From: Aurantiochytrium sp. KH105
Taxonomy: Eukaryota > Sar > Bigyra > Thraustochytrida > Thraustochytriidae
Length of the DNA: 64,000 nucleotides
Assembly: GCA_003116975.1 (NCBI GenBank)
Contig: BGKB01000098.1
Coordinates: 183,389 to 247,388 of the forward strand
Direction: 5' to 3'
Made by a program: the position numbers and the translations under genes. Shown here piece after piece: positions 6,433 to 54,562 of this stretch. The number at the start of each line of letters is the position of its first letter. Position 1 is the stretch's first letter. Below the pieces are notes generated by a model. That model was given only the letters and a program-made list of their open reading frames with translations. It was not told the origin of the DNA and did no database searches.

Positions 6433-7353
6433 ATGGCAGTCCCTTCCGACTCGAGCGAGGCGACGACGGCGCGAGTGGTCTTCGTGCTCGTGCCGGGCCA
6501 AGGCACGCGCAGCGAAGGCGTCGCGCCGCTGCAGAGCGCGCGTGTTGCCTCGTGTGCCCAGGATGAGCTTGGATTAGACGTGACGCGGCTCACGGCAGAG
6601 CAGCTCAGCGGCAACACCTACTACGCGCAGCTGGCAGTAGGCGTGCGCGCGTTGGACCGCATCGATAGGCTGCGCAAGGAACGCAGCGACCTCTTTGCAC
6701 AGCCAGGTACGCAGACGTGCTTTGCCGGCTTTTCTGTAGGCGAGATCCCGGCCCTTGTCGGCGCTGGGAAACTCAGCCTCCGTGATGGCTTGCGTGTCCT
6801 CCGCGCGCGAGCTGCAGCAATGCAATCCGCGTGTGAGGCTGTCCCGGGAACAATGGTCACCTTGCAAGGCGTGCAAGACGAGACGGCGCTGTTGGCGCAC
6901 GGCAGTATCGCATCCAAATTGTACCCCGGATGTTGTGTCGTGGCGGGCCCAAGTGCCAAATTGACCAAAGTGAACTGGGTCCCAGAGCTAGCTGAGCGAG
7001 CCAGAGTCCGTACAGACCTTGCAGGTGCCTTTCACACCGAACAAATGACTCCTGGCGCCGATGCTATCCGCAATTTACGCGGTAAAGTCATGCCGGCTCG
7101 CGGACGCCCCGATAGCGTCATCTTCGCCAATCTATCTGGCAAACTCTACACTGACACTGATGATGTGCTCGAGTGCCTTGCGAACCAGGTCGTATCCACG
7201 GTGCAATGGGAGAGCATTTTGCAGTCAATTGTCGCTGATTCGCGCCCAAAGGTCATCGTTGATCTTGCGTCAAAGGGACAATTTCGTGCAATGCTTCGTT
7301 CGATTGACCCCAACCTCGTCGAAGATGAGTCTCTTTTTGTCGAGTTCCAATAA
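6433..7353 (+). CDS. MCAT: Malonyl-CoA:ACP transacylase (MCAT/FabD family)
   Basis: 306 residues, the normal length for a stand-alone malonyltransferase that moves malonyl from CoA to the acyl carrier protein for fatty-acid or polyketide synthesis. Visible motifs are VPGQGTR near the N-terminus, GFSVGE with nucleophile Ser101 (the same variant of GHSxGE as in animal mitochondrial MCAT), GAFHTEQM with catalytic His201, and the QFRAMLRSI end motif. The reading frame extends a little upstream through a repeat, but the first ATG is at 6433 with A at -3 and G at +4. There is no obvious targeting peptide with this start. It lies 2.2 kb from the 3' end of the AT-KS-ACP megasynthase, so it could serve that enzyme as well as, or instead of, mitochondrial type II fatty-acid synthesis (inference). 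Confidence 0.93.
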   Translation: MAVPSDSSEATTARVVFVLVPGQGTRSEGVAPLQSARVASCAQDELGLDVTRLTAEQLSGNTYYAQLAVGVRALDRIDRLRKERSDLFAQPGTQTCFAGFSVGEIPALVGAGKLSLRDGLRVLRARAAAMQSACEAVPGTMVTLQGVQDETALLAHGSIASKLYPGCCVVAGPSAKLTKVNWVPELAERARVRTDLAGAFHTEQMTPGADAIRNLRGKVMPARGRPDSVIFANLSGKLYTDTDDVLECLANQVVSTVQWESILQSIVADSRPKVIVDLASKGQFRAMLRSIDPNLVEDESLFVEFQ

Positions 7354-9527: not shown

Positions 9528-12500
9528 TTAGGCCTTCCAGTCAGGGTAGGGCAGTGCGCAAGACTCGTCAATGATGCCCTGAGAGAGAATGTCGTGCAGC
9601 TCCTGCCACTCGCGACGGTTGGCTGCAATATACTCTTCGACCGACTGAGAATCGACAAAGTCGTCCCGACGGCTGCGAAGGAGCGCATTAGCCTTCTCTC
9701 GGATACCAGGGACCTTGTCCACGAGAAATTCGGCGCCGCGAATGTAGTCCGTCCACTTGCGATCCTGCACATCAACATTGTTGGCGAGCTCGGCGCTGTC
9801 AAGAATGGCCGCGTCGTTGCCCTTGAAAAAGTGCAGGTAAACCATGACGTAGAACTTGGACATTTCGACAACGCTGGAGCCAAAGAAGGAGTTGAAGGCG
9901 TCGTCGTCAATAAAGGCGTCCGCCAGGTACATGACGTTGGTGTCAAGGTAGTTGATGGCGTTCATGTGCGTGTAGGGCGTAAGGTCGGGCACAAGACTGG
10001 CGTTACGCTCAAAGCCAGTGCAGCGAACCACAATGTCCGCCTCGATCACATCGTCCGCGCTGCCGCCACGCACGACGACACCGTTCTCGACAAAGTGGTC
10101 GATCTCGCCGACGCAGGTCTCGAGCTTACCGAGAAAGTGGCCCACGAACCAGACGTCCGAGACGCTAATGGTGTGGCCTGTGTGCTTGATGAGGTCGAGC
10201 CAGCACTCGGGCATGGTCGAGTTGCTCGATGCGTAAAGCTGACGCCAGAGAAACATGTTCTTGCTGTTGTGGGTGGCGTTCATCTCGTCGCCAATGTCAT
10301 CGACGCTTGCGCGGTGCACAAAGTTAATGTAATCAATGTACTTGGGGCAAATGGTGCCATGGCGACGCGCCAGGACGACTACGTTCTTGGCACCGTGTTC
10401 AAGCGCAGTACGCGCGTTCTCGACGGCGAAGGCGCCCATGCCAACAACGACGACCCGCTTGCCAGCCCAGTCAATGTTTTTGTTCTCGGCGTCGCCTCCA
10501 AAACCATCGACAATCTGGCCCGAGAACATCTCGTGCTGCTTCCAGACAATGGGACGAGGGGTACCGACGCGATCGTTAATGGCGAGAATGACTCCCGTCG
10601 CGGTGATCTTGGCCCCGGTCTTTTCGAGGCTCACAGAGTACGAGGAACCCGAGGCGCCGGAGCGCTCGACGTTTGCAACGCGGGTACTCGTGAAGAGGCG
10701 GCCCTGGGCGTTGAGCTCGCGTGCCAGCTTGAGAATATCGGCGCGAACCTCGGCCGTGGTACTGTGATCGCGGTTCGGGCGCGAGCGGTAGTCGTGGACG
10801 ACGCGGTACGAGCCCTCGGAGCTGTTGACCTGGCTCTTGGCGTTGGCAAAGGTGGTCCAGATGCCGCCGCAAAACTCCTCCTTCTCAAGGACGACAACGT
10901 CAACGCCCTCGTCCATGAGGCGCTTGGCGGCGAGCAGACCGACCACACCAGCGCCGACGACGACCACCTCATAAGAGTCCCGCGGAACGCCAGACGTTGA
11001 GACAACCATGTCTTCCTTGGTGAGCAGGCCGACAGCCTCATCGTCCTCGACAGGGTAGGCCGGGGAGTTGCGACGCTTGCCGTCGGCGAGGTATGCCTTG
11101 ACACGCTTGACAAAGTCCTCGGACTGGGCGGAACCGTCCGTGGCAAAGCGCACGGGAACGTCAACAAAGAGACGGACATGGGCCGCAAAGCGGGCAGCAT
11201 CCTGTTCAGGGTCAAGATGTCCGGTAAGCACGATCCGCGTCTCTTCGCTGCCACCGTCGGCAGGATCCGGCTGCACGGCATCGAGCACCTTAGCGGACGC
11301 ATCCTGGGCAAAGTAGAAACGGCGGCGGGCGGGGCGAAGGACAAAGTCCGGGACGACCTTGGGGAAGAAGGCGCGAGAGGCCATGCGGGCGCCGGCAACG
11401 AGGGCGCGCATCTTGAGCATGGCGACCTGGCCCGGGATGCCCTGGGTCTCCGCCGTAGTGGAGAACCCACAGTCGGTACCGGCGATGACCCGCTCGGGAC
11501 CCACAACGCGGGCATAGCGGCAGATGCGCTCGCAGACCACCGAGGGATCCTCGACGCTCGAGGAGCAGGTGTCGATGACGCCCGGGTACAAATCAACGTC
11601 CTTGGGAATGTCCACGTCCAGAAGCGCGCCGGCGTCGGCGTTGTGGCGGTGGTTGGCGGTCTCAAATCCGAAGCCACCAGCATTGATACCAAAAGCAATG
11701 GGCATAACCTCGCGCGCGCTCACGTCGCGGTGATGCGTGCCCGGGTAGTTACCCCAGCAGACGTGGACGCGGACAGCCTCGCGAGGAATACCTTCGAGCG
11801 CACGGTTGAGCATCTTGACGTGCATGCGGGCGATGCGCTTCCAGGCCATGAGGCCAAGGTGCTTGAAGCGCGTGTGACGCGACATGGCAAGATCGGGGCA
11901 GTCGACCTGGAGCGTGAAACCGTGACGCACGATCGTGGCGTACTCGACATGCATCGCATCGGCCACCGCGCCGAGGTACTCCTCGTAGGTGGGGTAGACC
12001 TCAGGGGCATCATTGTTGAAAAACATGGCGAGCGTGCCGGGGGAGGGCGCAGAGTAAAAGGCCTGACCGGGAAGTCCAGCGTTGCAGAGGCGCATGGCGC
12101 GCTGTACGGTCTGGAGCTCGCGCTCGAGGGCCTTTTGGCCCGTGTAGGTGACCTCGCCGATGCAGTGCGGGTTGCACGTGCGCACGCTCTTGTTGAGCGT
12201 GATGAGACCCGCGCGAACGAGGAAGCGGCGCGCGAGGCAGGGCAAATCCTCGAGGTCGAGCGGCTGCGGCGCGACGGATTCGTCCTGCTCTTCGAAGCCG
12301 GACATGCGCGTGAGCGCCGAGGTGACGTAGTCCATGCGGCCGGCCTCGCCATCATTGATGATGCTAATACCGATGCTGAGCTGGGTCTGGATGATCTTGT
12401 GGAGCTCCTTGTACTGCTGCTCGGGCTCACGGGGACGCGGAAGCGAGCCGACGTGCGTAGTCCGGATGAGACCATCGAAACGCGGGACAGCCCAGGTAAA

Positions 12501-15500
12501 AGCATCCGGCACGGAATCTTCGCGCTCGGATTCGGGTGCGCGGGCCGACTGACGTTTGGCCTGCGGCGCGACGGCGGGAACAGGGGTCGGCGCAGCAGTG
12601 GCCTGCGCGCGTGAGATCTCACTGGGGGCGATCTTGGCAGACTGCATGATCTTCTCACGAAGGTCGGCCCAGGTATAGCCACCGCCGAGAAAGTCGCTGA
12701 GCGAGGAAGCCTCGACGGCCATCTTTTGCTCGATGCGCAAGAAAAGTTCGGTGAGGCCAAGCGAGTCGACGCCGCTCTGAAGAATCTGCGCCTCGGGGGA
12801 GACCTGGCCAGCGACGGAGCTCACAACGTCCCAGAAAATCTGCTCCATGACGGTCTGCTGCATGCTCGCATCCTCGTGGGCGGCGGAGGAAACCTGCTGC
12901 GCGGGTTCGTGCTGCAATTGCATTTGTTGCAGTTTCTGCATTTGCTGCTGCAGCTGCTGCTGCTCGAGAATCTGGGCGCGTTGCTGCGTACGGTCAAAGA
13001 CAAAGACCTTGCTGTTGCTGTTGCGCTCCTTGGCGGGGGCGGCAACGGGCGGGAGCGGCTTGGGCAAGAGCTGCTGCGGCGCGGCACGAAGCAAGATGTG
13101 GACGTTGCTGCCGCCAAAGCCAAAGGAGGAGACGCCGGCGACACGGAGTGGCTGGTCAGGGCGGACGTTGGCGTCGGCGGCGAGGCGAAGACCCTCGCAG
13201 GGTTCGAGAAGCGGGTTGGCCTCGACAAAGTTGGCCATGCGCGGAACTTCCTGGCGCGAGAGCACCATGGCTGCATGCACCAAACCTGCGACGCCGGCGG
13301 CGGCCTCGAGATGGCCGAGGCTGCTCTTGACGCTCGCCAGGTAGCAGGGACGGTCCGCCGACCGGGAAGTGCCCACGGCAGCCTTGAGAGCGCTCCATTC
13401 GATCGGATCGCCGAGCTTCGTGCCGGTACCGTGGCACTCGACGAAGTCCACCTCGCCAGCATCCACGCGCGACGCGCGCAGAGCCGCCGCAATGCACTCC
13501 TCCTGAGCGGCCGGGCTGGGCGCGGTCAGGCTCGCGCCGCGGCCACCATTCTGGTTCGAGGCGCCGCCGAGCACCTCGGCGTAGTACGGCTCGCAGTCGT
13601 CATTGTTGACCTTGCCGGCGTCAGAGCCGTTGAGAGCATCCGAGTTCTTGGGCTCGCGGCGCTGGAGCAGCACGAGCGCGGCGCCTTCACTGCGCACGTA
13701 GCCGTCGGCGCTAGAGTCAAAGGAGCGGCAGCGCTCACCGGGGGCGAGGAAGCCGGACTGCGCCATGCAGGTGGAGAAGGCGGGGTCCCAGAGCAGGTTG
13801 ACGCCACCGGCAATGGCGGCATCGATGGTGCCGGCGGCGAGGTCGCGCTGGGCCTCGAGCACAGCGTCGAGCGAGGAGGCGCAGGCGGAGTTGATGACCT
13901 TGCAAGGACCGTGGAGGCGGTAGACGTGGCTGACGCGCGCGGCGATGATGCTCGGGTTGGTGCCTGTCGGGTAAAAGACCGAGGAGCGGTCGCCGGCAAA
14001 CTCCGAGTTCCAGGCGCCAATGTAGACGCCGGTGCGCGCGGGAAGCTGCTCGATACCATGCTCAGTGAGAAGCTTGTCCACGCACGAGAGCACGAGTGCC
14101 TGTTGCGGGTCCAGAGTCTGGGCCTCGCCTTGCGAGATTCCGAACTTGGCGCAGTCCAGCGTCAGATCCCCGAGAAAGGCAGCTGCGCGCTTGCCGCCGT
14201 CAAAGCCCGCGTCGAAGCGCACAGCGTCGCCCTGCGACGACGTGAAAGCGAACAGCTGTGCCGGCGACTTGATGTTGGCCGGCAGCAGGCAGCTCATGGC
14301 GCGGATGACCACACGAGGACGAGCGCCTGAAGCAGAGATGGCGCTCTCAGAGGCACTCTCGGCAGCAGCGGATGTACCCTCGGTAGTCTTGGCACCGGCA
14401 ACCTCGCCAAAGCGTTCAATGAGGTCTTGCGGGGTCACGTGCCGGTAAAAGTCGTGGGCCTTGAGTCCCACGAAGACGCCGCTGCGGTGCAGCTTGGCGG
14501 CGCCCTGCACAATGTCGGCGCTGGCGAGCCCACTCTCGAGCCAGGTGGCGTCCATGTCGAGGGCCACGGGAAAGGCCTCGCGGAGTGCAGCCAGCACACC
14601 GGCACCCTGCGTGGCGCCAACAATCTCGCGCCAGGCGTCGAGGTGGAGACCGCGCTGGCGGTCGACCATGGCACGCGGAGCAGGACTGTCGGGTCCAAAA
14701 GCACGGCGCAGGGAGGGCGCGAGAATGGGGTGCGCGCCGAGCTCTACGACGCGGGCGATTTTGCCGGCGCAGCGCTCCTGGACAGCCGCAAGGGTCTTGG
14801 CCAAATCAACGCCCGTGTGGGTCCAACGGGCCCAGTACTCATCGTCAAAGAGCGTCTTGTTCTCTTCGTCATTTCCGAATCCACCGAGCAAGGAAAGCGC
14901 CAGCGGTAGGGTCTTGCCATCGGCCGACCCAGCTGGGCGCGCAGGCAGCTTGCGCCACTCGTGAGACTCGTAGATGGAGGCGTGCCAGGGAAATCCGGTA
15001 TGCACCTTGGAGCGGCTGTCGGCCTCGATTGCGGCCTCGTCGCCGAGGATGATGGCAGCGCCAACGTCGGCGCCGTCCTCGTCAACGTGGTTGAGAGAAG
15101 CGACCTGGTCCTGGGGGCCGAGGGTGCCGTAGACGAGGCCTCCTTGCTCGGATCCGGTCACGTGGGCGAGGCAGACGGCGGCGTCGACGGCCTCGGCGGG
15201 CGAGAGGTGGCCGGCCACAACGGCGGCAGCGAGCTCTCCGATGCTATGGCCGACGACGACAATCTCGGCCTCGGGTCCGAGGGCGCTGCGGGCAATTTGG
15301 GCGGCGCCGAGCTGCACGACGAGCTGCGCCACGATTTCTTCGAGGGCGGTAAGGCTTTCGGGCGCCGTGCGCACGCGCTGGAGCACCTCGCGGAGCTGCA
15401 CGCCGTGCTCCTGCTCGAGGCGCTCTGCAACGGCATCAACGTGCTCGACGCCGAGCATTTTTTCCATGACTTGCGCCGTCTCGGCGCTGACGCTGCCCAC

Positions 15501-15527
15501 GCCGGAGAACACGAGTACGCTCGTCAT
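9528..15527 (-). CDS. AT-KS-ACP-MetE-FMO fusion megasynthase
   Basis: One uninterrupted frame of 1999 residues from the ATG at 15527. Domains in order: acyltransferase, about 4-275 (GHSIGE, Ser95); ketosynthase, about 405-815 (SACASS with Cys549, CHGTGT with His699, LGHLE with His739, normal triad spacing); Gln-rich linker, about 840-880; acyl carrier protein, about 885-960 (GVDSLGL, phosphopantetheine Ser922); cobalamin-independent methionine synthase C-terminal-like domain, about 1010-1385, with all zinc ligands (HVC His1255/Cys1257, Glu1289, GTDCGF Cys1353); linker; flavin monooxygenase, about 1512-1999 (GAGVVG for FAD, GMGAFA for NADPH). No ketoreductase, dehydratase, enoylreductase or thioesterase is visible. 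AT precedes KS, the reverse of usual type I order. The parts predict loading, one condensation, zinc-dependent thiol alkyl transfer and oxygenation; the product is unknown. Strong codon bias makes long antisense frames across it. Confidence 0.95.
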   Translation of the reverse strand: MTSVLVFSGVGSVSAETAQVMEKMLGVEHVDAVAERLEQEHGVQLREVLQRVRTAPESLTALEEIVAQLVVQLGAAQIARSALGPEAEIVVVGHSIGELAAAVVAGHLSPAEAVDAAVCLAHVTGSEQGGLVYGTLGPQDQVASLNHVDEDGADVGAAIILGDEAAIEADSRSKVHTGFPWHASIYESHEWRKLPARPAGSADGKTLPLALSLLGGFGNDEENKTLFDDEYWARWTHTGVDLAKTLAAVQERCAGKIARVVELGAHPILAPSLRRAFGPDSPAPRAMVDRQRGLHLDAWREIVGATQGAGVLAALREAFPVALDMDATWLESGLASADIVQGAAKLHRSGVFVGLKAHDFYRHVTPQDLIERFGEVAGAKTTEGTSAAAESASESAISASGARPRVVIRAMSCLLPANIKSPAQLFAFTSSQGDAVRFDAGFDGGKRAAAFLGDLTLDCAKFGISQGEAQTLDPQQALVLSCVDKLLTEHGIEQLPARTGVYIGAWNSEFAGDRSSVFYPTGTNPSIIAARVSHVYRLHGPCKVINSACASSLDAVLEAQRDLAAGTIDAAIAGGVNLLWDPAFSTCMAQSGFLAPGERCRSFDSSADGYVRSEGAALVLLQRREPKNSDALNGSDAGKVNNDDCEPYYAEVLGGASNQNGGRGASLTAPSPAAQEECIAAALRASRVDAGEVDFVECHGTGTKLGDPIEWSALKAAVGTSRSADRPCYLASVKSSLGHLEAAAGVAGLVHAAMVLSRQEVPRMANFVEANPLLEPCEGLRLAADANVRPDQPLRVAGVSSFGFGGSNVHILLRAAPQQLLPKPLPPVAAPAKERNSNSKVFVFDRTQQRAQILEQQQLQQQMQKLQQMQLQHEPAQQVSSAAHEDASMQQTVMEQIFWDVVSSVAGQVSPEAQILQSGVDSLGLTELFLRIEQKMAVEASSLSDFLGGGYTWADLREKIMQSAKIAPSEISRAQATAAPTPVPAVAPQAKRQSARAPESEREDSVPDAFTWAVPRFDGLIRTTHVGSLPRPREPEQQYKELHKIIQTQLSIGISIINDGEAGRMDYVTSALTRMSGFEEQDESVAPQPLDLEDLPCLARRFLVRAGLITLNKSVRTCNPHCIGEVTYTGQKALERELQTVQRAMRLCNAGLPGQAFYSAPSPGTLAMFFNNDAPEVYPTYEEYLGAVADAMHVEYATIVRHGFTLQVDCPDLAMSRHTRFKHLGLMAWKRIARMHVKMLNRALEGIPREAVRVHVCWGNYPGTHHRDVSAREVMPIAFGINAGGFGFETANHRHNADAGALLDVDIPKDVDLYPGVIDTCSSSVEDPSVVCERICRYARVVGPERVIAGTDCGFSTTAETQGIPGQVAMLKMRALVAGARMASRAFFPKVVPDFVLRPARRRFYFAQDASAKVLDAVQPDPADGGSEETRIVLTGHLDPEQDAARFAAHVRLFVDVPVRFATDGSAQSEDFVKRVKAYLADGKRRNSPAYPVEDDEAVGLLTKEDMVVSTSGVPRDSYEVVVVGAGVVGLLAAKRLMDEGVDVVVLEKEEFCGGIWTTFANAKSQVNSSEGSYRVVHDYRSRPNRDHSTTAEVRADILKLARELNAQGRLFTSTRVANVERSGASGSSYSVSLEKTGAKITATGVILAINDRVGTPRPIVWKQHEMFSGQIVDGFGGDAENKNIDWAGKRVVVVGMGAFAVENARTALEHGAKNVVVLARRHGTICPKYIDYINFVHRASVDDIGDEMNATHNSKNMFLWRQLYASSNSTMPECWLDLIKHTGHTISVSDVWFVGHFLGKLETCVGEIDHFVENGVVVRGGSADDVIEADIVVRCTGFERNASLVPDLTPYTHMNAINYLDTNVMYLADAFIDDDAFNSFFGSSVVEMSKFYVMVYLHFFKGNDAAILDSAELANNVDVQDRKWTDYIRGAEFLVDKVPGIREKANALLRSRRDDFVDSQSVEEYIAANRREWQELHDILSQGIIDESCALPYPDWKA

Positions 15528-19352: not shown

Positions 19353-20625
19353 ATGCTCGTGCTCCCTTTCGCGTTATTCTCTTGAAACTACGAGTGAAAC
19401 GGGCCGCAAGGTCTTGCAGTGACTGTCAAGAGAGGCAAAAGACGACAAAATCTGAAGTCACGTCGACGCCACTTTTGTCGCCGACGCCACTTTTGACCGA
19501 GGTAGGGAAAGTCAATCCATCTTGCAAAGCACGTGCTCGGGAGTAATCGGTCAGAGTGGCTTCATCGATTCAAGAGAGCATTACCGGCGCAAACTCCTGT
19601 TCAGGAAGTTAAAGATTAAGATTTTGACAGTTCTTCCATCCCGGAAAAATCTCGCACGCAAGCTCGAAGCGAGGTGCATGCGCACCACTGACTGTGAGCA
19701 TACTCTTTCTGCCTCTCTCTCTCTGTCTTGGCACCGTCCCACCTCCACTCGCCAGCTCGTGCGGAGGCAATCAGCCGCGCGGCAGCGGAAAGCAGAGCAG
19801 TTCCGAAATCTATCGCAGCAGTACCAAAAGCGTTCCGCCCAGCTTAGTCGCAACACACGGCCGGTAATAGCGACGCCGACGCCGACGCCGACGCTGACGC
19901 CGACGCTGACGCCGACGGCGCGCTCGAGGCGGGACGAGGCGAGGCAAGACGTCAAAATAGAAGGCACAGACGGACTGGTCTTCTGGCTAGATCGCACACG
20001 CGATAAATTGCGCGGTGTGTGCTCTCGTACCTGAGGTAGGCGAAAAATGTATGTGCTCACGGCCGCGGCGCAGCGCAGCACACCGCGGCGCTACGCAATT
20101 TGCGGCTGCGCTGGGCTGAGCCGAAAAAGGGAAACTGAACAAAGGCAAATGGGCCGGACGCCTATGACTGTGCCACGGCCTTTGCTTGCATTTTTAATGG
20201 ACGGCAAGTTCCGCATTCCGCCATACCACGAGCCAGCATGAACAGAGCGTCCGTGACCCTCTTTCCAATCTCTCTTTTATGCTTGAAGCTGGGCATTTGG
20301 GAGGCGAGCCGATTTCCTTGACCAGCATTCTTTTCTCGCAGCAAGAAATGAACTCGCGCACGAGCTAGATCATGTTGCGATTCTCGACGGACCGAGAAAC
20401 AGGACGAAGTCACGTAAATTCTCCGTAGCTCTGCGCAGCTTTTGAGATAGAGAATGTACAAAAAAACGCGCATGCACGTTGTTACACATACCTTCGCAGC
20501 ATGGCTTTTCTTGCTCGTGGAGAAGGATGGCAGGCGTTGCCGGCAAAGCAAACCTGCAACAGAGAAAGACATACGACCTGACCAAGACCAAGCAAGCCAA
20601 CCACAAGCGTAAGCACAAACACACC

Positions 20626-22716
20626 ATGGTTTGCGCGCTTCGCTTCGTAGGCGTGCTTGCGAGCATCGTAGCCGCGTCTGCGGCGACGGTGGACGAATAC
20701 AGAAAGCTTACCGCCAAGAAATGCTACAACCCAAACAACAAGTACATCATCGGCACCGCCAAAGAGCAGGCAGTGGAAATCTGCCTTGAAGAGTGCCACG
20801 CTAATGATGACTGCATGGCCGTTGTAGAGAATGACGCAGGCAAGTGCGCCAAGTTCAAGTTTTGCGACTTGATAGATGCCAGCGACGACTCCTTTGTGTG
20901 GGCCCGGGATACCTTTGACAGCGGAGACGAGGACCTCATTCCGCACCTCAGCTCCACCTGCAAGGAAAGCCCGTATTCAACTTCAGGTCGAGACAAGACC
21001 GTCGCCGAGTGCCTCGAGCTCTGTCGCAAAGACTCCAAGGACTGCAAGTTCATTCGACTGAACAGAGTCCGCAAGTGCTCGCGTTTCGCCAAGTGCACAA
21101 TCAAAGATGCTACAGGCAAGCAAAAGACGTCTGTTCTCTATGAAGTGACAGAGGCATCCGAGCCCATCGACAGCGACCTCCCGAATTTGCCGGCCACCAC
21201 CTTCGACTCCGTTCTCAACAAGTACATTTTTAAGGACTCCACATGCCAAGGACAAGATGTGCTTGCCTCGAGTATCGTAACCTCCGAAGCCGCGTGCCAC
21301 GCTCTGGAGGAAGACACTGCCAAGGCTTGGATGTGGACGCCATCGACAGGACTATGCGAGACCTTTGCCAAGTGCGACGCCACGACATCATCCGAAAACT
21401 CGTATCTCTTTGTGGATGCTGTGAGCAAACGCCCTGGGCGCGGGTGGAGTTCCTGGAATGCATTCTTTCGGGAAGCCACAGAAGATCTCATCATGGAGCA
21501 GGTCGATCTTGTCGAGGAACATTTTCTGAGCTCTGGGTATGACATCATCCATACAGATGGTCTCTGCACCTTTGCTAACATGGCGAGTGATGGCGTGACG
21601 GCCTTGCGCACGAATATGAACGGGCTTGACTACACAGCCAACTCGGAGCTCGTCGAACCAACGGACTGCATCGTATCTGGCATGACAGGACCGAATGGCT
21701 ACGTTGAAAAACTTCACAACAAGGGCTTTCGGGTATCTTGGTACACTCCTGGATCCCTCACTTCCTGTGCGAATCACAACTTTCGTAGCAAGGCCAACTA
21801 TAAAGCTCTTGTGGTAAACGACGTCAAGACATACAAGTCCTGGGGTATTGACATTCTTAAAATCGATCGCTGCGGACTGCTTCCTCGGACAGACAAATTG
21901 AATACCGAACTCAAGGTCATCAAGTACTGGGGCCAAGTGATTGAAGAGCACTTTCCGGATCTTGAGGTTGAGAACTGCCGCTTTGCCTGCAACAACATTG
22001 ACGGTTGGATCAACGAAGCGCATCCTGATGCAGAGGTGAAGGTCTTTGATTACACCGCGTTGGGCAAGTTAAACTTTCAGGGTGCGTGTCCTGACGCGGC
22101 GCGCTTCCATCGCTCGTACGTCGATGTGCGGCCCTGGGCCTCTCGCATTAAGATGGCAATGAAGGCATTCTCCATGTTTCAAGAGGAGACCGGGCCGATG
22201 TTTGGCTGGTCGTATGGCGACACGCTCGAAGTCTGCAACACCGATTACAACAATAACCCGTACCGAATTGCGAGTGGGGTGCAGCCATCGACAGCGGCGG
22301 GCCCTCTGACCCGAAATCTCGAATTTCTGATGATCGGCGCGTGGGCAATCGCTTCGCAGCCGCTCTTTGTCTCAACTGACATCAGCAATTGCGCCGAGGA
22401 AATCATTGATGCCCTCACAGACAGCGCGCTTCTTGCCGTGAATGGCGAGTGGTCCGGAGACTCTGGAAAGATTGTTGACATTGAAGATGACGTCTGGACC
22501 TGGAAAAAGGTCGTCGAGACGCGTGACGCGAAGAAAACGCACGTCCTTCTCGCCGACATGAACCTGGAGACGGCCGCCGGTGATGCATGGGATCAAGCTG
22601 CTCTTGTCGCTCTTCATTGCGGCGAAGCTGAGGGTCTAAGTGTGCACACCTTTTGGTCCCGACCTAAAAAGCTCCAGCGTTCGATCTTCTTCACCTGCTC
22701 AGAGCCGCGCAGCTAG
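20626..22716 (+). CDS. GH27 alpha-galactosidase-like secreted enzyme with N-terminal PAN/apple-like modules (copy 1)
   Basis: 696 residues from the ATG at 20626 (context ACACCATGG; the frame upstream has no better start). A signal peptide (about residues 1-20) leads into roughly 300 residues of cysteine-rich modules with the spacing of PAN/apple repeats (C-x-E-x-C, K-C-x-x-F), about three copies. The glycoside hydrolase family 27 barrel follows: GRGWSSWNAF, GYDIIHTDG, YTPG, WGIDILKIDRCG with nucleophile Asp414, HRSYVDVRPW with the likely acid/base Asp500, GWSYGDTLEVCN and GAWAIASQPLFVSTD. The family hydrolyses terminal alpha-galactosides or alpha-N-acetylgalactosaminides of glycans, secreted or vacuolar. 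The N-terminal modules may bind carbohydrate or protein (inference). A close paralogue lies 2.7 kb downstream on the same strand. Confidence 0.95.
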   Translation: MVCALRFVGVLASIVAASAATVDEYRKLTAKKCYNPNNKYIIGTAKEQAVEICLEECHANDDCMAVVENDAGKCAKFKFCDLIDASDDSFVWARDTFDSGDEDLIPHLSSTCKESPYSTSGRDKTVAECLELCRKDSKDCKFIRLNRVRKCSRFAKCTIKDATGKQKTSVLYEVTEASEPIDSDLPNLPATTFDSVLNKYIFKDSTCQGQDVLASSIVTSEAACHALEEDTAKAWMWTPSTGLCETFAKCDATTSSENSYLFVDAVSKRPGRGWSSWNAFFREATEDLIMEQVDLVEEHFLSSGYDIIHTDGLCTFANMASDGVTALRTNMNGLDYTANSELVEPTDCIVSGMTGPNGYVEKLHNKGFRVSWYTPGSLTSCANHNFRSKANYKALVVNDVKTYKSWGIDILKIDRCGLLPRTDKLNTELKVIKYWGQVIEEHFPDLEVENCRFACNNIDGWINEAHPDAEVKVFDYTALGKLNFQGACPDAARFHRSYVDVRPWASRIKMAMKAFSMFQEETGPMFGWSYGDTLEVCNTDYNNNPYRIASGVQPSTAAGPLTRNLEFLMIGAWAIASQPLFVSTDISNCAEEIIDALTDSALLAVNGEWSGDSGKIVDIEDDVWTWKKVVETRDAKKTHVLLADMNLETAAGDAWDQAALVALHCGEAEGLSVHTFWSRPKKLQRSIFFTCSEPRS

Positions 22717-25421: not shown

Positions 25422-27614
25422 ATGAGTACTACATTGGCGTGGTCTCGAGGATCGAGGCGTGGAATGGCTAGAATGGACCGAGGAGGCCTCCGGGCGCTGG
25501 GGCCCGTATGGTTCTCCATGTTGGCCAGCCTGATTGGAGCGGCGGCAGCAGCTTCATCCATCGCGGACTTCTTCACGGAAATGCCGGGGATGAAGTGCTA
25601 CAATCCGAACAATAAGTACATCCTTCGTCCTGCTACGGAGCAGACAGTCGATGAATGCTTGACCGAGTGCTATAGCGATAGCGAATGCGTGGCTGCTGTT
25701 CACAACGAGCTTGGATTCTGCGCCTTGTACAAGTACTGCGATCTGCAAGATGGAGTACAGGGCGGCTCCGTCTTTGCGCGCGAGAGCTTCGACGGTCTGA
25801 GTAACCTCACTTCTTACTTGAGCTCGACTTGCAGACGAAAGGAGTATGCGAGATCCGGGAAGGGCAAGACTGTCGCCGAGTGTCTCGAGTACTGCTATGA
25901 GGACTCGGCAAACTGCAAGTATATTCGCCTTGACCAGAAAAGTAGGTGCTCGCGGTTTACGGATTGCTCCGTTCGGGATGCCACGAGAAACCAAAAGACA
26001 TCTGTGGTGTACAAGGTCCCCGAGCATGAGGGCTCTTCAACATCAGATACTACAGAAACAGTTCTTGAGTCATTTCCCGATGTGACGTTCGACTCGGAGC
26101 GCAATTTGTACATTTTCAAGAACACCAAGTGCAGCGACAAGGGTGATACTCTTGGCCATATGCTAACAAGCGACGAGTCCGAGTGTTTCAATCTCGTCAA
26201 CGCGAGTACGAAAGCAGCTGTATGGCAGTCAAAGACGGGCTCGTGCACTTTACTGAGTGATTGCAAGACAACAAAGTCGAAGAAAAAGACATATCTCTTC
26301 GTCAATGCTGAAAGAAAGCGTCCTCCGCGCGGTTGGAGCTCGTGGAACGCCTTCTATCGCTACGCAAGTGAGAGTCTCATCATGGAGCAAGTCGATCTTC
26401 TCGAAGAGTACGGTCTTCAGGACGCCGGCTTCAATATTGTTCATACGGACGGGCAGTGTACCTTTGCTTCGGTCGACGCGACCAACACATTTGCATTGCG
26501 AACCAACTTGAAGAAAGGTACTTCATACACTTCCGAATCAGACATGCTCGAACCAGTTGGCTGTATTACTTCCGGAATGACCGGCCCGAACAACTATGTT
26601 TCCCAGCTGCACAATAGAGGATTTCTTGTCTCGTGGTATACTCCAGGGGCGAAGACTACATGCTCCGGGCTTCGATTCCGGGATGATGACAACTTTAAAA
26701 AACTCGTGGTACGAGATGTGAAAATGTACAAGAAGTGGGGCATCGATTTTCTTAAAATTGACGCCTGTGGCAAACTTCCCAAAAAGTATACGCCGGGAAA
26801 GGAAGGCAAACTCATCCAATTCTGGCGCGACACGATCGAAGACCATTTTCCGGAGCTCGAAGTTGAGAATTGCCGGTACCAGTGTAACAACATCGTCAAG
26901 TCTGAAAATTCAGATATTGATGGCACGCTTGAGGTATTCAACTACGAGAACTTGAACAAGGAGAATTTCAATTCATTCTGTTCGAGTGTCGCCCGGTACC
27001 ATAGATCTTTCGTGGATATTCGCCCGTGGGTTTCGCGCATCTTGGATGCTATGAAGGCCTTTAGTATGTTCCAAGAAGAGACAGGACCATTTTCTGGATG
27101 GTCGTATGGTGATGTGCTCGAAATCTGCAACTATGATTACGACACAAACACGTACCGACTGATGAGCGGTATCAAACCTGAACTGTCTCCATCTCCAATG
27201 ACCGAAAATCTCGAGTATGTTATTTTAGGGACCTGGGTCATCGCTTCCCAGCCGCTCTTCATTTCGACGGAGCTTAACAAATGCAACGCCAGTATCATTG
27301 GTCTGCTCACGAATCCCGATTTTATAGCGATCAATGGCGAGTGGTCCGGCGATTCTGGCAAAATTTATAGCATCGAGGACGAGGTTTGGTATTGGAAAAA
27401 GGTTGTCGAAACACGGACAGCGACCAAAACTCATATTCTCGTCGCGGACATGAATTTGGACGAGCCTGGCGGAGCAGAATGGGACGAAGAGGATATCAAG
27501 TCAAGCTTCTGTCCGGATGTGGACGAGAGTAACATCATTACGTACTGGTCAAGACCTGATGGGCTTCAGCGCTCCCTCATGTTTTCATGTCTATCTCCGC
27601 GAAGCAGCGAATGA
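25422..27614 (+). CDS. GH27 alpha-galactosidase-like secreted enzyme with PAN/apple-like modules (copy 2)
   Basis: 730 residues from the ATG at 25422. A later in-frame ATG at 25464 would shorten an unusually long basic leader before the hydrophobic signal segment (about residues 26-46). The architecture is the same as copy 1: cysteine modules beginning KCYNPNNKYI, then PRGWSSWNAF, FNIVHTDG, YTPG, WGIDFLKIDACG (nucleophile Asp447), HRSFVDIRPW (acid/base Asp532), GWSYGDVLEICN and WVIASQPLFIST. Similarity to copy 1 runs the full length, so the pair arose by whole-gene duplication; clear divergence and no shared flanking DNA suggest it is not recent. Both copies keep the catalytic aspartates, so both are probably active. 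Confidence 0.95.
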   Translation: MSTTLAWSRGSRRGMARMDRGGLRALGPVWFSMLASLIGAAAAASSIADFFTEMPGMKCYNPNNKYILRPATEQTVDECLTECYSDSECVAAVHNELGFCALYKYCDLQDGVQGGSVFARESFDGLSNLTSYLSSTCRRKEYARSGKGKTVAECLEYCYEDSANCKYIRLDQKSRCSRFTDCSVRDATRNQKTSVVYKVPEHEGSSTSDTTETVLESFPDVTFDSERNLYIFKNTKCSDKGDTLGHMLTSDESECFNLVNASTKAAVWQSKTGSCTLLSDCKTTKSKKKTYLFVNAERKRPPRGWSSWNAFYRYASESLIMEQVDLLEEYGLQDAGFNIVHTDGQCTFASVDATNTFALRTNLKKGTSYTSESDMLEPVGCITSGMTGPNNYVSQLHNRGFLVSWYTPGAKTTCSGLRFRDDDNFKKLVVRDVKMYKKWGIDFLKIDACGKLPKKYTPGKEGKLIQFWRDTIEDHFPELEVENCRYQCNNIVKSENSDIDGTLEVFNYENLNKENFNSFCSSVARYHRSFVDIRPWVSRILDAMKAFSMFQEETGPFSGWSYGDVLEICNYDYDTNTYRLMSGIKPELSPSPMTENLEYVILGTWVIASQPLFISTELNKCNASIIGLLTNPDFIAINGEWSGDSGKIYSIEDEVWYWKKVVETRTATKTHILVADMNLDEPGGAEWDEEDIKSSFCPDVDESNIITYWSRPDGLQRSLMFSCLSPRSSE

Positions 27615-35613: not shown

Positions 35614-38600
35614 CTAGTCTTTGTGTGCATCGTGGGTTTTCCGCTTGGGTCCTGAAGTAATTTTTTCAACGTCCGCAACAATGTGCAGGCCTGAACCATG
35701 CGTTCTTGGAGCTGTGATCAGATCGAGGACTTCCACAAACCCAGCATCGTAGGCAATCTTGAGCGCAGTCTGAGCCTTGCTGCTTTTGAGGCATGAAAAA
35801 TCCATGTAGGCTCCGCGGTTGAACAACCATGATATCATCTCCTCCGCGCGGGATGTAGAGTGACGTCTGAATTCCAAAGCAACATCAAAGAGCGACACCT
35901 GGGCGTCGTGCATGTCCAAGCTGGCGCCATCTTGAATGAGTTTTTCGACAATGTCGGAATGCAAGTTCCGAATCGCATGCATCAGAGCTGTTCTACCTGA
36001 CAAGTCTTTCATGTTCGAGTCGACTCCTTGCTGTAAAAGAAAGCGCACCACAACGGCAGCGCCTCGAGAGCAAGCTTGCATGAGAGGTGTCATGCCCAAT
36101 CTGTCTTGTACGTTTGGATCAGCACCTCGCTCCAGCAGAAATTTTGCCAATTCCTCTGAGTGCTCCCGGGTCGAACTTGAGCTTGGGGCCCGGGGAGAAG
36201 GCGCCGATGTGTCATCGGAAGAGGACGCCGGTTCTGGCTCCGTGTCATCGCAACCGAATTGACGCACATTGCAATCTAAGATGCTTAGCATGATTGACAA
36301 AGGTGTCGCGCCATTATTGTCTCGAGCGTGCAAATCAGCGCCGCGATCGATCAAAGCTTGTGCACCAGCAGGCAACAATCGGGATGTCGAGGTTCTTTCG
36401 CAAACCGTCATCAACGCAGTTCGGCCTCTTGCATCTGAAAAATTTAAGCCAATGCCTCTGCGATGAAATATATCTGCCAGTGAAAACTTTCTGAAAATGT
36501 AGGGAATCGCGAGATCTGAAGCACCACTCACCTGCACAACGTCTGCATGCGAGACAAGCAGCTGGACGATCCTCTCGTGACCAGCTTCGCACGCAACTGA
36601 GAGTGCTGTGCATATTTTCCCGTGAGGTAAATGGAAAAACGGGTAGTGGCGGATACATATAAAGTGCTTGAGGCTGTCGAAACTAGATTTCAGCTTCTCT
36701 TCTGTGCCAGACAAGGCAACTGTGCGGTCGGCACCGCTCTCTAGTAAAACATTCACAGTCTCGATACTGCCACTGCAGCATGCCGACATGAGCGACGTCC
36801 AGTGACATGTCGCGAGAGAATTCACTGAGGCGCCTTGTTTCAAAAGCAATCGAACGAGATTTACGTCCTTGTAGGAACTTGCCAAATGGAGCGCAGTCCA
36901 GCCGAAAGACGTCCCATGGTTGACATTTGCGCCGTGCTCAATGAGTAAGGTAGCAATAGCGCTTTGATGTGCGCAACAAGCTATAATGAGCGCCGTCCAG
37001 CCATTCTCGCTTTGCATATCTATGGACGCGCCATGCTCTAGCAGCCAGCGAACGGTATCGAGATGCCCTTCTTTGCAGGCCCGCATCAAGCATGTCAACG
37101 CCTCGTATGAAGGTGAATACGACGACGGCAGTAGATTGACGTCAGCGCCGTGCCGAACGAGCAGCCCTGCAATTGGTAATAAGCCATTACCACACGCGTG
37201 CTGCAAAGCTTTACTCAAGTAGCCCAACTTTTGATCGTCTCGGAAACCTTGATTTATTTGCAGCAGAAGATTTACGATGTCCCACTGCTCCTTACTTGGC
37301 TCCCCAGAGCAAATAGAATACAGATGTTCAACCCCCAAGTACCTTTCACTTCTTTCATATCTAGACCCCAAGAATCTCTCCCTTCTTTGGGCGTCATGGT
37401 TGAGAAGTATTTTCACGATCTCTGTCCTACGATGTTTGCAGGCTGTTTCGAGATAAGGATATACTCTGGGGCCTCTCTCGAATCTGCGAAGGAGCGTCCG
37501 AGTAAGTTTTGCGCATCCGCATTTGCAAGCGTTTCGTAAAATCGTAGCGTGACGTCTGAGGTTCGGGTCAAATGTTGCACCTTGATCGATCAGGAAGACA
37601 GCAAAGTCCTCCATTTCATTGATAATTTTCTTGAGACTAAAATCCCAAGAACCCCAATCGAAAGTGCCACCTCGAGGGACAGGCTCTGGAAAGCGAATAC
37701 CACCAAGATTCTCGAAAGCCGTCAGTCCCTGTCGATCCACCGCATTGACTTCCGCGCCTCTACTGACGAGAAGTTTGGCAATAAGCAGAAGTTGCGTGAA
37801 GCGCGACTTCTCTATATCCTGGTCGGATCTGTTACAAGCTGCATTTAAAAGAGGTGTCTTGCCATGAGAATCCCTGCAATTCGCATCGCCTCCTTCCTTG
37901 AGAATTCGTTCTACTATTCTCGACCATCCACGCAAGCAAGCGGTGTGCAGAAGTTTCTCACCGCTGCTGCCTCGTGGGTCATATGTTACGCCATGGTCAA
38001 GGAGATACTCGGCACAGAGCTCGCTGCGAGGAAATGCTTCCGTCAGATAATCTGAATCGGCCACTGCACCATTTTCGATAAAATACTTGACCATATCCAG
38101 GTTGGAGGCACCGCAAGCGGAACGAAGCGCCATCTGAAGATATGTCTGCATATGCTCGTTGGATTTCGTCAACACCCCCCTTTCGAGAAGAATCTTGGTC
38201 ATACCAAAGTGACTCGGTACGCAATCCATATCGAAGGCCGTACTTCCAATGCCCGGCGCGTGCAAATTGACGCCATAATCGAGGAGTCTTTGAAAACAGG
38301 CCATGGCCCCTGTCTCACATGTGATGGCCAGCAATGAGCCTCTTTCATTATCTTTCACAATATGATTACCATCAGCACCGTGTCGAAGAAGCAGGTCGAC
38401 TATGGGGGCTTGATTCCGTTCACAAGCGGCCGCCAGCGGCGTAAAGAAAGAGTATGTTTCAATTTCAAAGTTCACGTCGGCTCCACGGCTGATAAGTAGT
38501 TGAGCAAGTTCCATATCTCCATGTAAGGACGCTTGTATGAGCACTGACTGCCCATGTTCATTGATGTCATCCACCTTGCCTCCACCATGATCAAGGAGAA

Positions 38601-39165
38601 GCTCAATCATGTCTGCGCTGCGCGTTTTTGGATGAGACAATCCAACAGGCGTAAGTTCTCGCTTGCCTTCGTCCAAAAACTTGTCTATTTGATCGAAATA
38701 TCGAGGAGGCGTTCGCAGAAAGATGAAATCCATGCCGTGCTCCACAAAGAGGCGAGCAAGGTTTACATTATTCTTTTGGACAGCGAGTTGCAGGGCCTTT
38801 TCGCGAACCTTGAGCTCAACATCACGGCTGAGGAGCATTCGAACAACCTCGACTTGATTTTCGCGACACGCTTCCACAAGAGGGTACTTGTCGGAGTATC
38901 CACTGTAATTTACGTCTGCTCCACGATCAAGGAGCAAGCGCGCGGCGTTCACGTGTCCATTTGTGCAAGCCACGGAAAGGGCGGTGATGCCGTTCTCCTC
39001 GGAAGCAACATCCGCGCCGAGGTCCATGAGCACATCCATGACTTGCACAAGGCCCTCGCGGCTCGCATGATGCAGCGGCTTGGGGATCCATTCCAGCAAC
39101 TTGGCGTCCTGCCGTACAGCGGCGCGGATCCCGTCGAGGTCCTGATTCGTGACGAGCGCCTCCAT
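35614..39165 (-). CDS. Large ankyrin-repeat protein
   Basis: 1183 residues from the ATG at 39165. Nearly the whole length is ankyrin repeats of about 33 residues, some 25-30 of them, with the usual pattern GxTALxxAxxxGHxxxVxxLLxxGAdxN; good examples are ENGITALSVACTNGHVN, GWTALHLASSYKDVN and DLSGRTALMHAIRNLHS. An acidic Ser-rich insertion (about residues 975-1005) interrupts the array late. No kinase, SOCS box or other enzymatic domain is seen, so a scaffold or protein-binding role is inferred. The C-terminus is a short basic tail. The last 50 residues are duplicated just downstream. Confidence 0.95.
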   Translation of the reverse strand: MEALVTNQDLDGIRAAVRQDAKLLEWIPKPLHHASREGLVQVMDVLMDLGADVASEENGITALSVACTNGHVNAARLLLDRGADVNYSGYSDKYPLVEACRENQVEVVRMLLSRDVELKVREKALQLAVQKNNVNLARLFVEHGMDFIFLRTPPRYFDQIDKFLDEGKRELTPVGLSHPKTRSADMIELLLDHGGGKVDDINEHGQSVLIQASLHGDMELAQLLISRGADVNFEIETYSFFTPLAAACERNQAPIVDLLLRHGADGNHIVKDNERGSLLAITCETGAMACFQRLLDYGVNLHAPGIGSTAFDMDCVPSHFGMTKILLERGVLTKSNEHMQTYLQMALRSACGASNLDMVKYFIENGAVADSDYLTEAFPRSELCAEYLLDHGVTYDPRGSSGEKLLHTACLRGWSRIVERILKEGGDANCRDSHGKTPLLNAACNRSDQDIEKSRFTQLLLIAKLLVSRGAEVNAVDRQGLTAFENLGGIRFPEPVPRGGTFDWGSWDFSLKKIINEMEDFAVFLIDQGATFDPNLRRHATILRNACKCGCAKLTRTLLRRFERGPRVYPYLETACKHRRTEIVKILLNHDAQRRERFLGSRYERSERYLGVEHLYSICSGEPSKEQWDIVNLLLQINQGFRDDQKLGYLSKALQHACGNGLLPIAGLLVRHGADVNLLPSSYSPSYEALTCLMRACKEGHLDTVRWLLEHGASIDMQSENGWTALIIACCAHQSAIATLLIEHGANVNHGTSFGWTALHLASSYKDVNLVRLLLKQGASVNSLATCHWTSLMSACCSGSIETVNVLLESGADRTVALSGTEEKLKSSFDSLKHFICIRHYPFFHLPHGKICTALSVACEAGHERIVQLLVSHADVVQVSGASDLAIPYIFRKFSLADIFHRRGIGLNFSDARGRTALMTVCERTSTSRLLPAGAQALIDRGADLHARDNNGATPLSIMLSILDCNVRQFGCDDTEPEPASSSDDTSAPSPRAPSSSSTREHSEELAKFLLERGADPNVQDRLGMTPLMQACSRGAAVVVRFLLQQGVDSNMKDLSGRTALMHAIRNLHSDIVEKLIQDGASLDMHDAQVSLFDVALEFRRHSTSRAEEMISWLFNRGAYMDFSCLKSSKAQTALKIAYDAGFVEVLDLITAPRTHGSGLHIVADVEKITSGPKRKTHDAHKD

Positions 39166-53383: not shown

Positions 53384-54562
53384 TTAGCAAAGAAAAGCGC
53401 GAGAGCGCGCAAAGCCAGCGACCGAGATGAGGGTATCCATGGTCATCTCCGGAACGGACCCGGAGCAGCCCATTGCGGTGGAAGCGTGCACCGCGCCGAT
53501 AAGGACCTTGCAGGTAGCGCGCACGCCAGCCTCCATGAGTCGTCGCGAAAAGAGAATGCCTTCATCGCGGAGGGGGTCGAGCTCCGAAACCTGAATGGTG
53601 GTCCGGGGGAACTGCTTGATGTCCTCATCCGTAGCGAAAGCAGCCCAGGAAAGCGGATCCTTCTTGCGAAAGGCATCAATGCTGTACTCGATCGCAGCCA
53701 CCTCGTTGTCCGGCAAGTTGAGAAAGACCTGGTTGCATTCGCTGTTGAGGTGGCTCGTGCCGAGGATGCCATTGTCCTGAACATCCTGCGGCCACTGACC
53801 CGCAATGTATGGGCAGAGGGGGTAGATGCCATGCTGGACAAGGTAGCGCTCACCGTCGCGGATGGCCTTGAGCGCAATGGTGAGAGTGAGGTTGCCGCCG
53901 CCACTGTCGCCCGAGACGACGATGCGCTCGTCAATGCCGAGGGACTCCTTGCTTGCATGGATCCACTTGAGCGCGCTGTAGCAGTCGTTGAGACCAGCAG
54001 GAAAGGGTGCGGTCTCGCTCTGGTGTTCTGTGGGCACCGTGGTGTTGCGGTACTCGGCCATAACGACCACCACGCCTTGACGCGCAAGAACCTTGCAGAG
54101 GGTAAAGTATTCTGGGTTGTAGATGCTGTTGAAGGCCATGCCTCCACCATGAATGTACATGACGCAGGGCAGGGGACCTTCTCCGAATTCAGATCTGTCT
54201 TTGGGCTTGATGACGCAAATGGGGACGGTGTTTCCGTCCGGTTCGGAGGTAATCTTATCCGTGGAGATCTCCAAGTCGTCTTCCTTTGCCATGGCCTTGA
54301 CTTCTTCGGGCAGATCAATCGGCTTTTCCTTGGCAACGATGGCCATAAACTTGGGCACATCTCTTTCCAAGCGCGACTTGACCAGCTCCTTGTACGTGGT
54401 CTCGTCGTGGTTGTAGCTGAGGAGCAAGCTCACTGCGAACACGGGAAGACGCATCGTGTCCTTCTTATATCCCGGATGCACCTTGGGGTTCTCCTTGAGC
54501 ACATCGAGAGCTTTCAAGAGGCGCTCATCCACCTCGGGGTTCGACTCATGACGCAGACTCAT
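53384..54562 (-). CDS. HSL-family alpha/beta hydrolase (esterase/lipase), copy 1
   Basis: 392 residues from the ATG at 54562. Hormone-sensitive-lipase-type hydrolase: oxyanion motif HGGGMAFNS, nucleophile elbow GDSGGG (Ser220), acid region ELDPLRDEG and the C-terminal VHAST region with the catalytic His. An N-terminal 100-residue helical cap precedes the fold. The family cleaves esters of short to medium acyl chains or lipids; the substrate here is unknown. It ends in ...RSRAFLC with no organelle signal. A paralogue of the same length lies 1.1 kb upstream on the same strand. Confidence 0.95.
   Translation of the reverse strand: MSLRHESNPEVDERLLKALDVLKENPKVHPGYKKDTMRLPVFAVSLLLSYNHDETTYKELVKSRLERDVPKFMAIVAKEKPIDLPEEVKAMAKEDDLEISTDKITSEPDGNTVPICVIKPKDRSEFGEGPLPCVMYIHGGGMAFNSIYNPEYFTLCKVLARQGVVVVMAEYRNTTVPTEHQSETAPFPAGLNDCYSALKWIHASKESLGIDERIVVSGDSGGGNLTLTIALKAIRDGERYLVQHGIYPLCPYIAGQWPQDVQDNGILGTSHLNSECNQVFLNLPDNEVAAIEYSIDAFRKKDPLSWAAFATDEDIKQFPRTTIQVSELDPLRDEGILFSRRLMEAGVRATCKVLIGAVHASTAMGCSGSVPEMTMDTLISVAGFARSRAFLC

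Follow-up and report, generated by a model that had tools for sequence, protein, structure and literature searches.

A gene of the thraustochytrid Aurantiochytrium sp. KH105 encodes, in a single open reading frame (ORF), an acyltransferase (AT), a ketosynthase (KS), an acyl carrier protein (ACP), a zinc domain resembling the cobalamin-independent methionine synthase MetE, and a flavoprotein. It lies within a stretch of 64,000 nucleotides of contig BGKB01000098.1 (positions 183,389 to 247,388), referred to here as the window. The fusion belongs to a published, uncharacterised kind, and its parts also occur in bacteria as a cassette of three genes. From its sequence, we tentatively favour a reading in which the protein may be a folate- and B12-independent homocysteine S-alkyl (probably methyl) transferase fed by an ACP-tethered donor, although we put this at somewhat less than an even chance.

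Results

Integrity of the fusion gene

The frame at 9528-15527 on the minus strand is uninterrupted and carries all five domain types; an in-frame stop precedes its ATG, and homologues also have the N-terminal motif FSGVGS. The host assembly (~76 Mb) has paired contigs, and contig C89 holds a second allele that differs by 16 residue changes and zero gaps, or by 83 synonymous and 17 non-synonymous bases (ratio of non-synonymous to synonymous polymorphism, pN/pS, 0.065). The intact second allele and this low ratio rule out an assembly artefact or a pseudogene. Bacterial contamination is ruled out by the presence of both alleles in the 76-Mb genome, by a third-position GC content (GC3) of 0.78, and by the 99% identity of the MetE-flavoprotein half to an annotated protein of Hondaea fermentalgiana. 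A viral origin is unsupported, as 15 pattern matches in viral_contigs included no relatives and fold matches in BFVD were weak. The fusion ORF is a real gene. In a whole-genome search in which 24 matches were scored, the MetE part was matched by the two fusion alleles only, and the flavoprotein part had eight further matches, at 26-30% identity.

A sequence-only reading of this DNA had proposed a genuine five-domain fusion with intact catalytic motifs (Ser95; Cys549/His699/His739; Ser922; zinc set 1255/1257/1289/1353; a Rossmann pair). The intact ORF in both alleles, the Pfam domains and our alignments bear out both proposals.

A three-gene cassette in bacteria

When the flavoprotein part alone was used as a query, the proteins recovered were mostly of 600-640 residues, and with the MetE part alone they were of ~380 residues; in both cases the named ones were bacterial. 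At least 10 flavoprotein/MetE pairs lay on contigs of equal size. A scan of 84,980 species genomes yielded 12 loci, 11 of them from deltaproteobacterial or Desulfo- groups and one named 'Proteobacteria' only. The genes are ordered AT-KS-ACP, MetE-like, flavoprotein, as are the domains of the fusion, in 11 of 11 readable loci (L016 and L018, which end at contig edges, were left out of this count; L053, found later, is the eleventh). Across the first 10 readable loci the AT-KS protein has 805-995 residues and the flavoprotein 608-640. The MetE-like gene is inverted in four of the 10 (L010, L013, L020 and L021), such that order is kept and orientation is not. L010 has a small peptidase-like gene between the AT-KS and MetE-like genes, and both AT-KS proteins tested by Pfam (L010 and L019) contain more than one ACP stretch.

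The surroundings of the cassette are mostly unrelated to it: 20 flanking genes scanned from nine loci encoded a glycosidase, LysE, a transposase, GcpE, Dus and others, with no polyunsaturated fatty acid (PUFA) synthase gene among them. Because the cassette genes neighbour one another while their flanking genes are mostly unrelated, the three parts make up a unit that largely stands by itself and that protists have as a single chain. A cluster resembling an ABC transporter (one member identified by Pfam) stands beside the cassette in four of the 12 loci, at differing positions, and one further flanking cluster recurs in two. An alpha/beta hydrolase directly upstream in two loci (L011:4763-5533 and L017:4820-5620) is a possible release enzyme.

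Fused relatives in protists

Protein searches, each of which scored 7997-8000 candidates sharing most words, recovered 47 proteins with the MetE-flavoprotein half as the query. AT, KS, MetE and flavin monooxygenase (FMO) parts occur together in 26 of these (BLAST, 1e-3). The others are shorter, partial or without one part at this threshold (P0046 and P0048 lack MetE, P0047 lacks FMO), and BLAST at 1e-3 misses some ATs, since P0009 and P0013 show an AT in alignment. The fusion extends to dinoflagellates, Amoebophrya, a pelagophyte and a pedinellid, a distribution added by this analysis: named members come from Hondaea, Amoebophrya A25 and A120, Symbiodinium, Cladocopium, Polarella, Effrenium, Chrysophaeum and a pedinellid. 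Among the literature matches listed, we recognised no account of the family outside thraustochytrids, and among those listed for DiatB nothing was relevant by title.

In the Emiliania huxleyi protein P0024, the parts present are limited to carrier, MetE and flavoprotein. It is one of four proteins of 1238-1387 residues on the E. huxleyi tree branch (with P0023, P0036 and P0039) that have MetE and flavoprotein parts and no AT or KS; precomputed Pfam places a carrier domain in this group, whose members are incomplete sequences or else are split differently. Six single-ORF fusions (P0010, P0011, P0012, P0014, P0015 and P0016) lie on metagenome contigs of ~9 to 246 kb, and none of them turned up in viral or GTDB scans. 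In the metagenomic protein P0007 (2225 aa) the HxCxGN zinc motif and the GGxW motif each occur twice, which probably reflects a tandem pair of MetE-flavoprotein units.

We built a flavoprotein tree from the fusion ORF, 32 other fused proteins, 19 of at least 120 stand-alone matches, the 12 bacterial loci and three outgroups from the host genome. One group (support 98) unites the bacterial loci with 15 of the 19 stand-alone matches, another (100) the dinoflagellate, E. huxleyi, pelagophyte and pedinellid fusions, and a third (81) the thraustochytrid and Amoebophrya fusions with four stand-alone rows (P0049, P0050, P0051 and P0133). The outgroup branch, at ~5 changes per site, does not allow a root to be placed, so the tree shows neither a single fusion event nor a direction of transfer.

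Catalytic residues of the three parts

The zinc ligands of the MetE-like domain (H/C/E/C) are kept in 55, 55, 54 and 54 of 55 aligned rows (the fusion ORF, 10 bacterial and 44 of 45 fused proteins), and S1028, E1061 and D1209 in 54, 55 and 55. The last three correspond to the homocysteine residues S433, E484 and D599 of canonical MetE (PMC7857596). The DIHSP-type His of MetE is not kept, the domain scores far below the cut-offs of the NCBIfam methionine synthase models, and the N-terminal folate-binding domain PF08267 is not among the best 25 of 27 families for the fusion ORF. Nor did PF08267 give any match in the whole host genome, in a search that detected nine of 14 control sequences. The host has MetH; a profile search of its genome gave no match to canonical MetE, a negative limited to canonical MetE because PF01717 overlooked even the MetE domain of the fusion.

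The catalytic residues of a polyketide synthase (PKS) module are present (KS Cys/His/His, ACP Ser, AT Ser/His). In extender-type ATs an Arg binds malonyl; at its position, read by eye, all 36 family ATs have an aliphatic residue and all four controls an Arg. The alignment comprised the fusion ORF, 25 of its 47 homologues, the ATs from all 10 readable bacterial loci and the controls, one of which is an AT-like gene in the window. No thioesterase domain was found in the fusion ORF, and the PKS dehydratase (DH) and enoylreductase (ER) families gave no match among the best 25 of 27. A ketoreductase (KR) match fell below the cut-off, and the ACP is single rather than tandem. About 2 kb from the fusion, a free-standing AT gene of the malonyl-transacylase type (6433-7353, plus strand, 306 aa) has Arg at the malonyl position; it could feed malonyl-ACP in trans, or its proximity may be fortuitous.

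Both Rossmann motifs and the GGxW motif of the flavoprotein are kept in 97-99 of 99 rows, an overlapping set of the fusion ORF (twice), 42 alignment members, the 12 bacterial loci and 43 of 45 fused proteins (P0003-P0047). FMOs and Baeyer-Villiger monooxygenases (BVMOs) share the fingerprint FxGxxxHxxx(W/Y/F). Asp1674 stands in place of its His in the fusion ORF, the column is D/S/N/A/T in 85 of the 99 rows (the residues of the other 14 were not printed), and F-x-G-x-x-x-H occurs anywhere in the sequence in five of 99.

Table 1. Coordinates of the fusion ORF and its parts in the window
Feature	Position	Strand	Details
Whole fusion ORF	9528..15527	-	1999 aa, AT-KS-ACP-MetE-like-flavoprotein
AT domain, residues 1-330	14538..15527	-	Ser95, His182; Leu120 (after Cys119) at malonyl-AT Arg position
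KS domain and C-terminal extension, residues 400-875	12903..14330	-	Cys549, His699, His739, Lys734
ACP, residues 885-965	12633..12875	-	phosphopantetheine Ser922
Core-MetE-like zinc domain, residues 1015-1395	11343..12485	-	Zn H1255/C1257/E1289/C1353; homocysteine-site S1028/E1061/D1209
Linker region, residues 1396-1512	10992..11342	-	matches N-terminal extension of bacterial flavoproteins (~600-640 aa)
Flavoprotein, class-B-monooxygenase-like, residues 1513-1999	9531..10991	-	FAD GxGxxG 1525, NADP GxGxxA 1696, N1568, C1727

Other features of the window and genome

Elsewhere in the window, ORFs of 729 and 730 residues (20527-22716 and 25422-27614, plus strand) have weak matches to alpha-galactosidase A (Melibiase_2), the second with a PAN domain. 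On the minus strand are an ORF of 1183 residues with many ankyrin repeats (35614-39165), two adjoining alpha/beta-hydrolase (Abhydrolase_3) ORFs of 392 residues each (53384-54562 and 55657-56835), and an aspartyl protease domain (PF09668; 58728-60020). Contigs C27 and C56 (L001-L006), probably two haplotypes, each contain a very long ORF, of 5708 and 5831 aa respectively, in which four ketosynthase matches fall.

Discussion

A published counterpart in Schizochytrium

The sequence-only reading had held that no architecture of this kind was known. That claim falls: in Schizochytrium, the 'MetE-like' gene of Ma et al. 2022 (PMC9734096) joins AT and KS to a cobalamin-independent methionine synthase and a CzcO flavoprotein in one ORF, as here, and the relatives in other protists and, split, in bacteria contradict the claim further. 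Zinc ligands are given as 233, 235, 267 and 330, a spacing of +2/+32/+63 against +2/+32/+64 in the KH105 fusion. Likened in this way by description, the KH105 protein looks like the counterpart of this gene (sequence A0661). The portion of the paper available to us names four domains without an ACP, whereas Pfam finds one in the KH105 fusion, and it gives no homologues beyond thraustochytrids; it states that the Schizochytrium genome holds no other MetE domain. The transcript rises 4.21-fold without cobalamin, and falls by 36.2% in response to methionine, 1.8% to riboflavin and 49.5% to the two together. When cobalamin was omitted, eicosapentaenoic acid (EPA) rose from 1.26 to 7.63%, together with the transcript, and a 2024 review restates the authors' claim.

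Proposed function and alternatives

The fusion would be a one-polypeptide version of a three-protein system of AT-KS-ACP, core-MetE-like zinc enzyme and flavoprotein. In the mechanism that we favour, the starter-type AT would load a monocarboxylic acyl group, the KS would make from it a short beta-ketoacyl chain carried on ACP Ser922, and this bound chain would be modified by the flavoprotein. The ACP-bound product would then serve as the electrophile for zinc-bound homocysteine thiolate, donating an alkyl group, most likely methyl, so that release occurs by alkyl transfer rather than hydrolysis; methionine or an S-alkyl-homocysteine would leave and the carrier be recycled. Donor chemistry, direction of transfer and product are what we infer. 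Methyl transfer yielding methionine would fit the published response to B12 and methionine, a regulation that points to homocysteine/methionine metabolism at least as well as to a secondary metabolite.

A more specific and rather improbable form of this mechanism would be an oxygen-dependent methionine synthase that draws its methyl from acetyl-CoA, with O2 and homocysteine as inputs and no one-carbon carrier. The AT would load acetyl, which the KS would condense with malonyl-ACP to acetoacetyl-ACP; Baeyer-Villiger insertion of oxygen beside the methyl by the flavin enzyme would give the methyl ester of malonyl-ACP, from which the zinc-bound thiolate would take the O-methyl, releasing methionine and regenerating malonyl-ACP. 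Such a route would account for why the AT is missing the malonyl Arg, why there is one KS and no thioesterase, why the folate domain has gone, how the three bacterial genes can suffice by themselves, and why expression responds to B12 and methionine.

Several observations weigh against a homocysteine S-alkyl transferase. Nineteen haptophyte species are described as having METH only and are taken as B12 auxotrophs (PMC6557843); P0024 is present in E. huxleyi all the same, so the system may not free haptophytes from B12. The Schizochytrium medium contained yeast extract (PMC9734096), and those data are therefore no proof of B12-independent methionine synthesis. The cassette is rare, at nine of 389 genomes of one class (eight of the nine already known). 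A PF02574-type S-methyltransferase occurs in eight of the 12 carriers and a stronger core-MetE match elsewhere in the genome in six, so the cassette is hardly their essential methionine synthase. Five of the 36 ATs (P0003, L010, L014, L015 and L019; not the fusion ORF) have an Arg one position earlier, which in L019 HMMER pairs with the control Arg via one gap. The portion of the literature examined gave no knockout or biochemistry of the fusion protein, and the computed results do not single out methyl over another alkyl or acyl group. As for MetH in the carriers, its activation domain gave only short partial matches, in six of 12.

Nearly as likely, given the METH-only auxotrophy of haptophytes and the other methionine-synthase candidates of the carriers, is that the system makes a sulphur-containing small molecule: AT-KS-ACP would build the chain, the zinc domain would add a homocysteine- or cysteine-type thiol, much as epoxyalkane:coenzyme M transferase does with an epoxide, and the flavoprotein would oxygenate carbon or sulphur. 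The sequence-only reading had suggested something close to this, with S- or Baeyer-Villiger oxidation of the product; the FMO/BVMO fingerprint His is, however, not in place in the flavoprotein. Most cassettes, moreover, have no conserved neighbour for tailoring, export or release (the ABC-like cluster and the hydrolase being confined to four and two of the 12), the ligand site that has been kept is that of homocysteine, and the Schizochytrium regulation tracks B12 and methionine (PMC9734096). Less probable by some distance, though compatible with the other readings, is that the flavoprotein, rather than being an oxygenase, uses NADPH to reduce a disulphide or thioether bound to the ACP or to homocysteine, in a system that would also work anaerobically.

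Ma et al. 2022 see the protein as regulating or off-loading the PUFA synthase, with release of EPA, and its MetE domain as an ordinary cobalamin-independent methionine synthase. The joint rise of EPA and transcript speaks for this, but it is a correlation without a knockout in the available portion of the paper (PMC9734096). The absence of PUFA synthase among the 20 genes flanking the bacterial cassettes, the occurrence of the fusion in dinoflagellates and a pelagophyte, and a MetE domain without folate domain or DIHSP-type His all make it very unlikely. The idea of a PKS extending a sulfonium acid towards dimethylsulfoniopropionate (DMSP) or gonyol, raised by the marine hosts, was dropped, as the gonyol literature consulted concerns Burkholderia chemistry and nothing in the present data speaks for it.

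If the zinc domain does alkylate homocysteine from an ACP-bound donor, the methyl transfer would be of a new kind, with a bearing on the B12 dependence of marine protists; one paper, moreover, ties the Schizochytrium counterpart to EPA production. Through the bacterial cassette, the question can be put to three ordinary proteins in E. coli rather than to an unwieldy protist enzyme of 2000 residues.

Comparison with known systems

The fusion shares its catalytic residues with extender-type PKS modules, but the malonyl-binding AT Arg is replaced. PUFA synthases have KR, DH and ER domains and tandem ACPs; the fusion has one ACP, and its best 25 of 27 families include no DH or ER, with KR below the cut-off. 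LbmA Ox-ACP from the lobatamide synthase (PDB 8odw), at 18% identity, contains no MetE domain. With class B flavin monooxygenases and BVMOs the flavoprotein shares the Rossmann pair and GGxW, but not the fingerprint His.

Epoxyalkane:coenzyme M transferase couples an epoxide with a thiol by zinc-thiolate chemistry on a lone MetE barrel, and one bacterial homologue of the MetE part bears this name. Likened by description, the fusion differs in its retained homocysteine amino-acid site and its link to an ACP. Canonical MetE (EC 2.1.1.14) has the same zinc and homocysteine residues together with a folate domain that is absent from the fusion. Similar in outline, set side by side by description, are the core methionine synthases MesA-MesD, which in the portion of the source available have a single MetE barrel with zinc and homocysteine residues and no folate domain; MesD requires a partner protein and oxygen (PMC7857596). 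In the present family the lone barrel is fused to, or encoded next to, AT-KS-ACP and a class-B-like flavoprotein, and its companion is not DUF1852.

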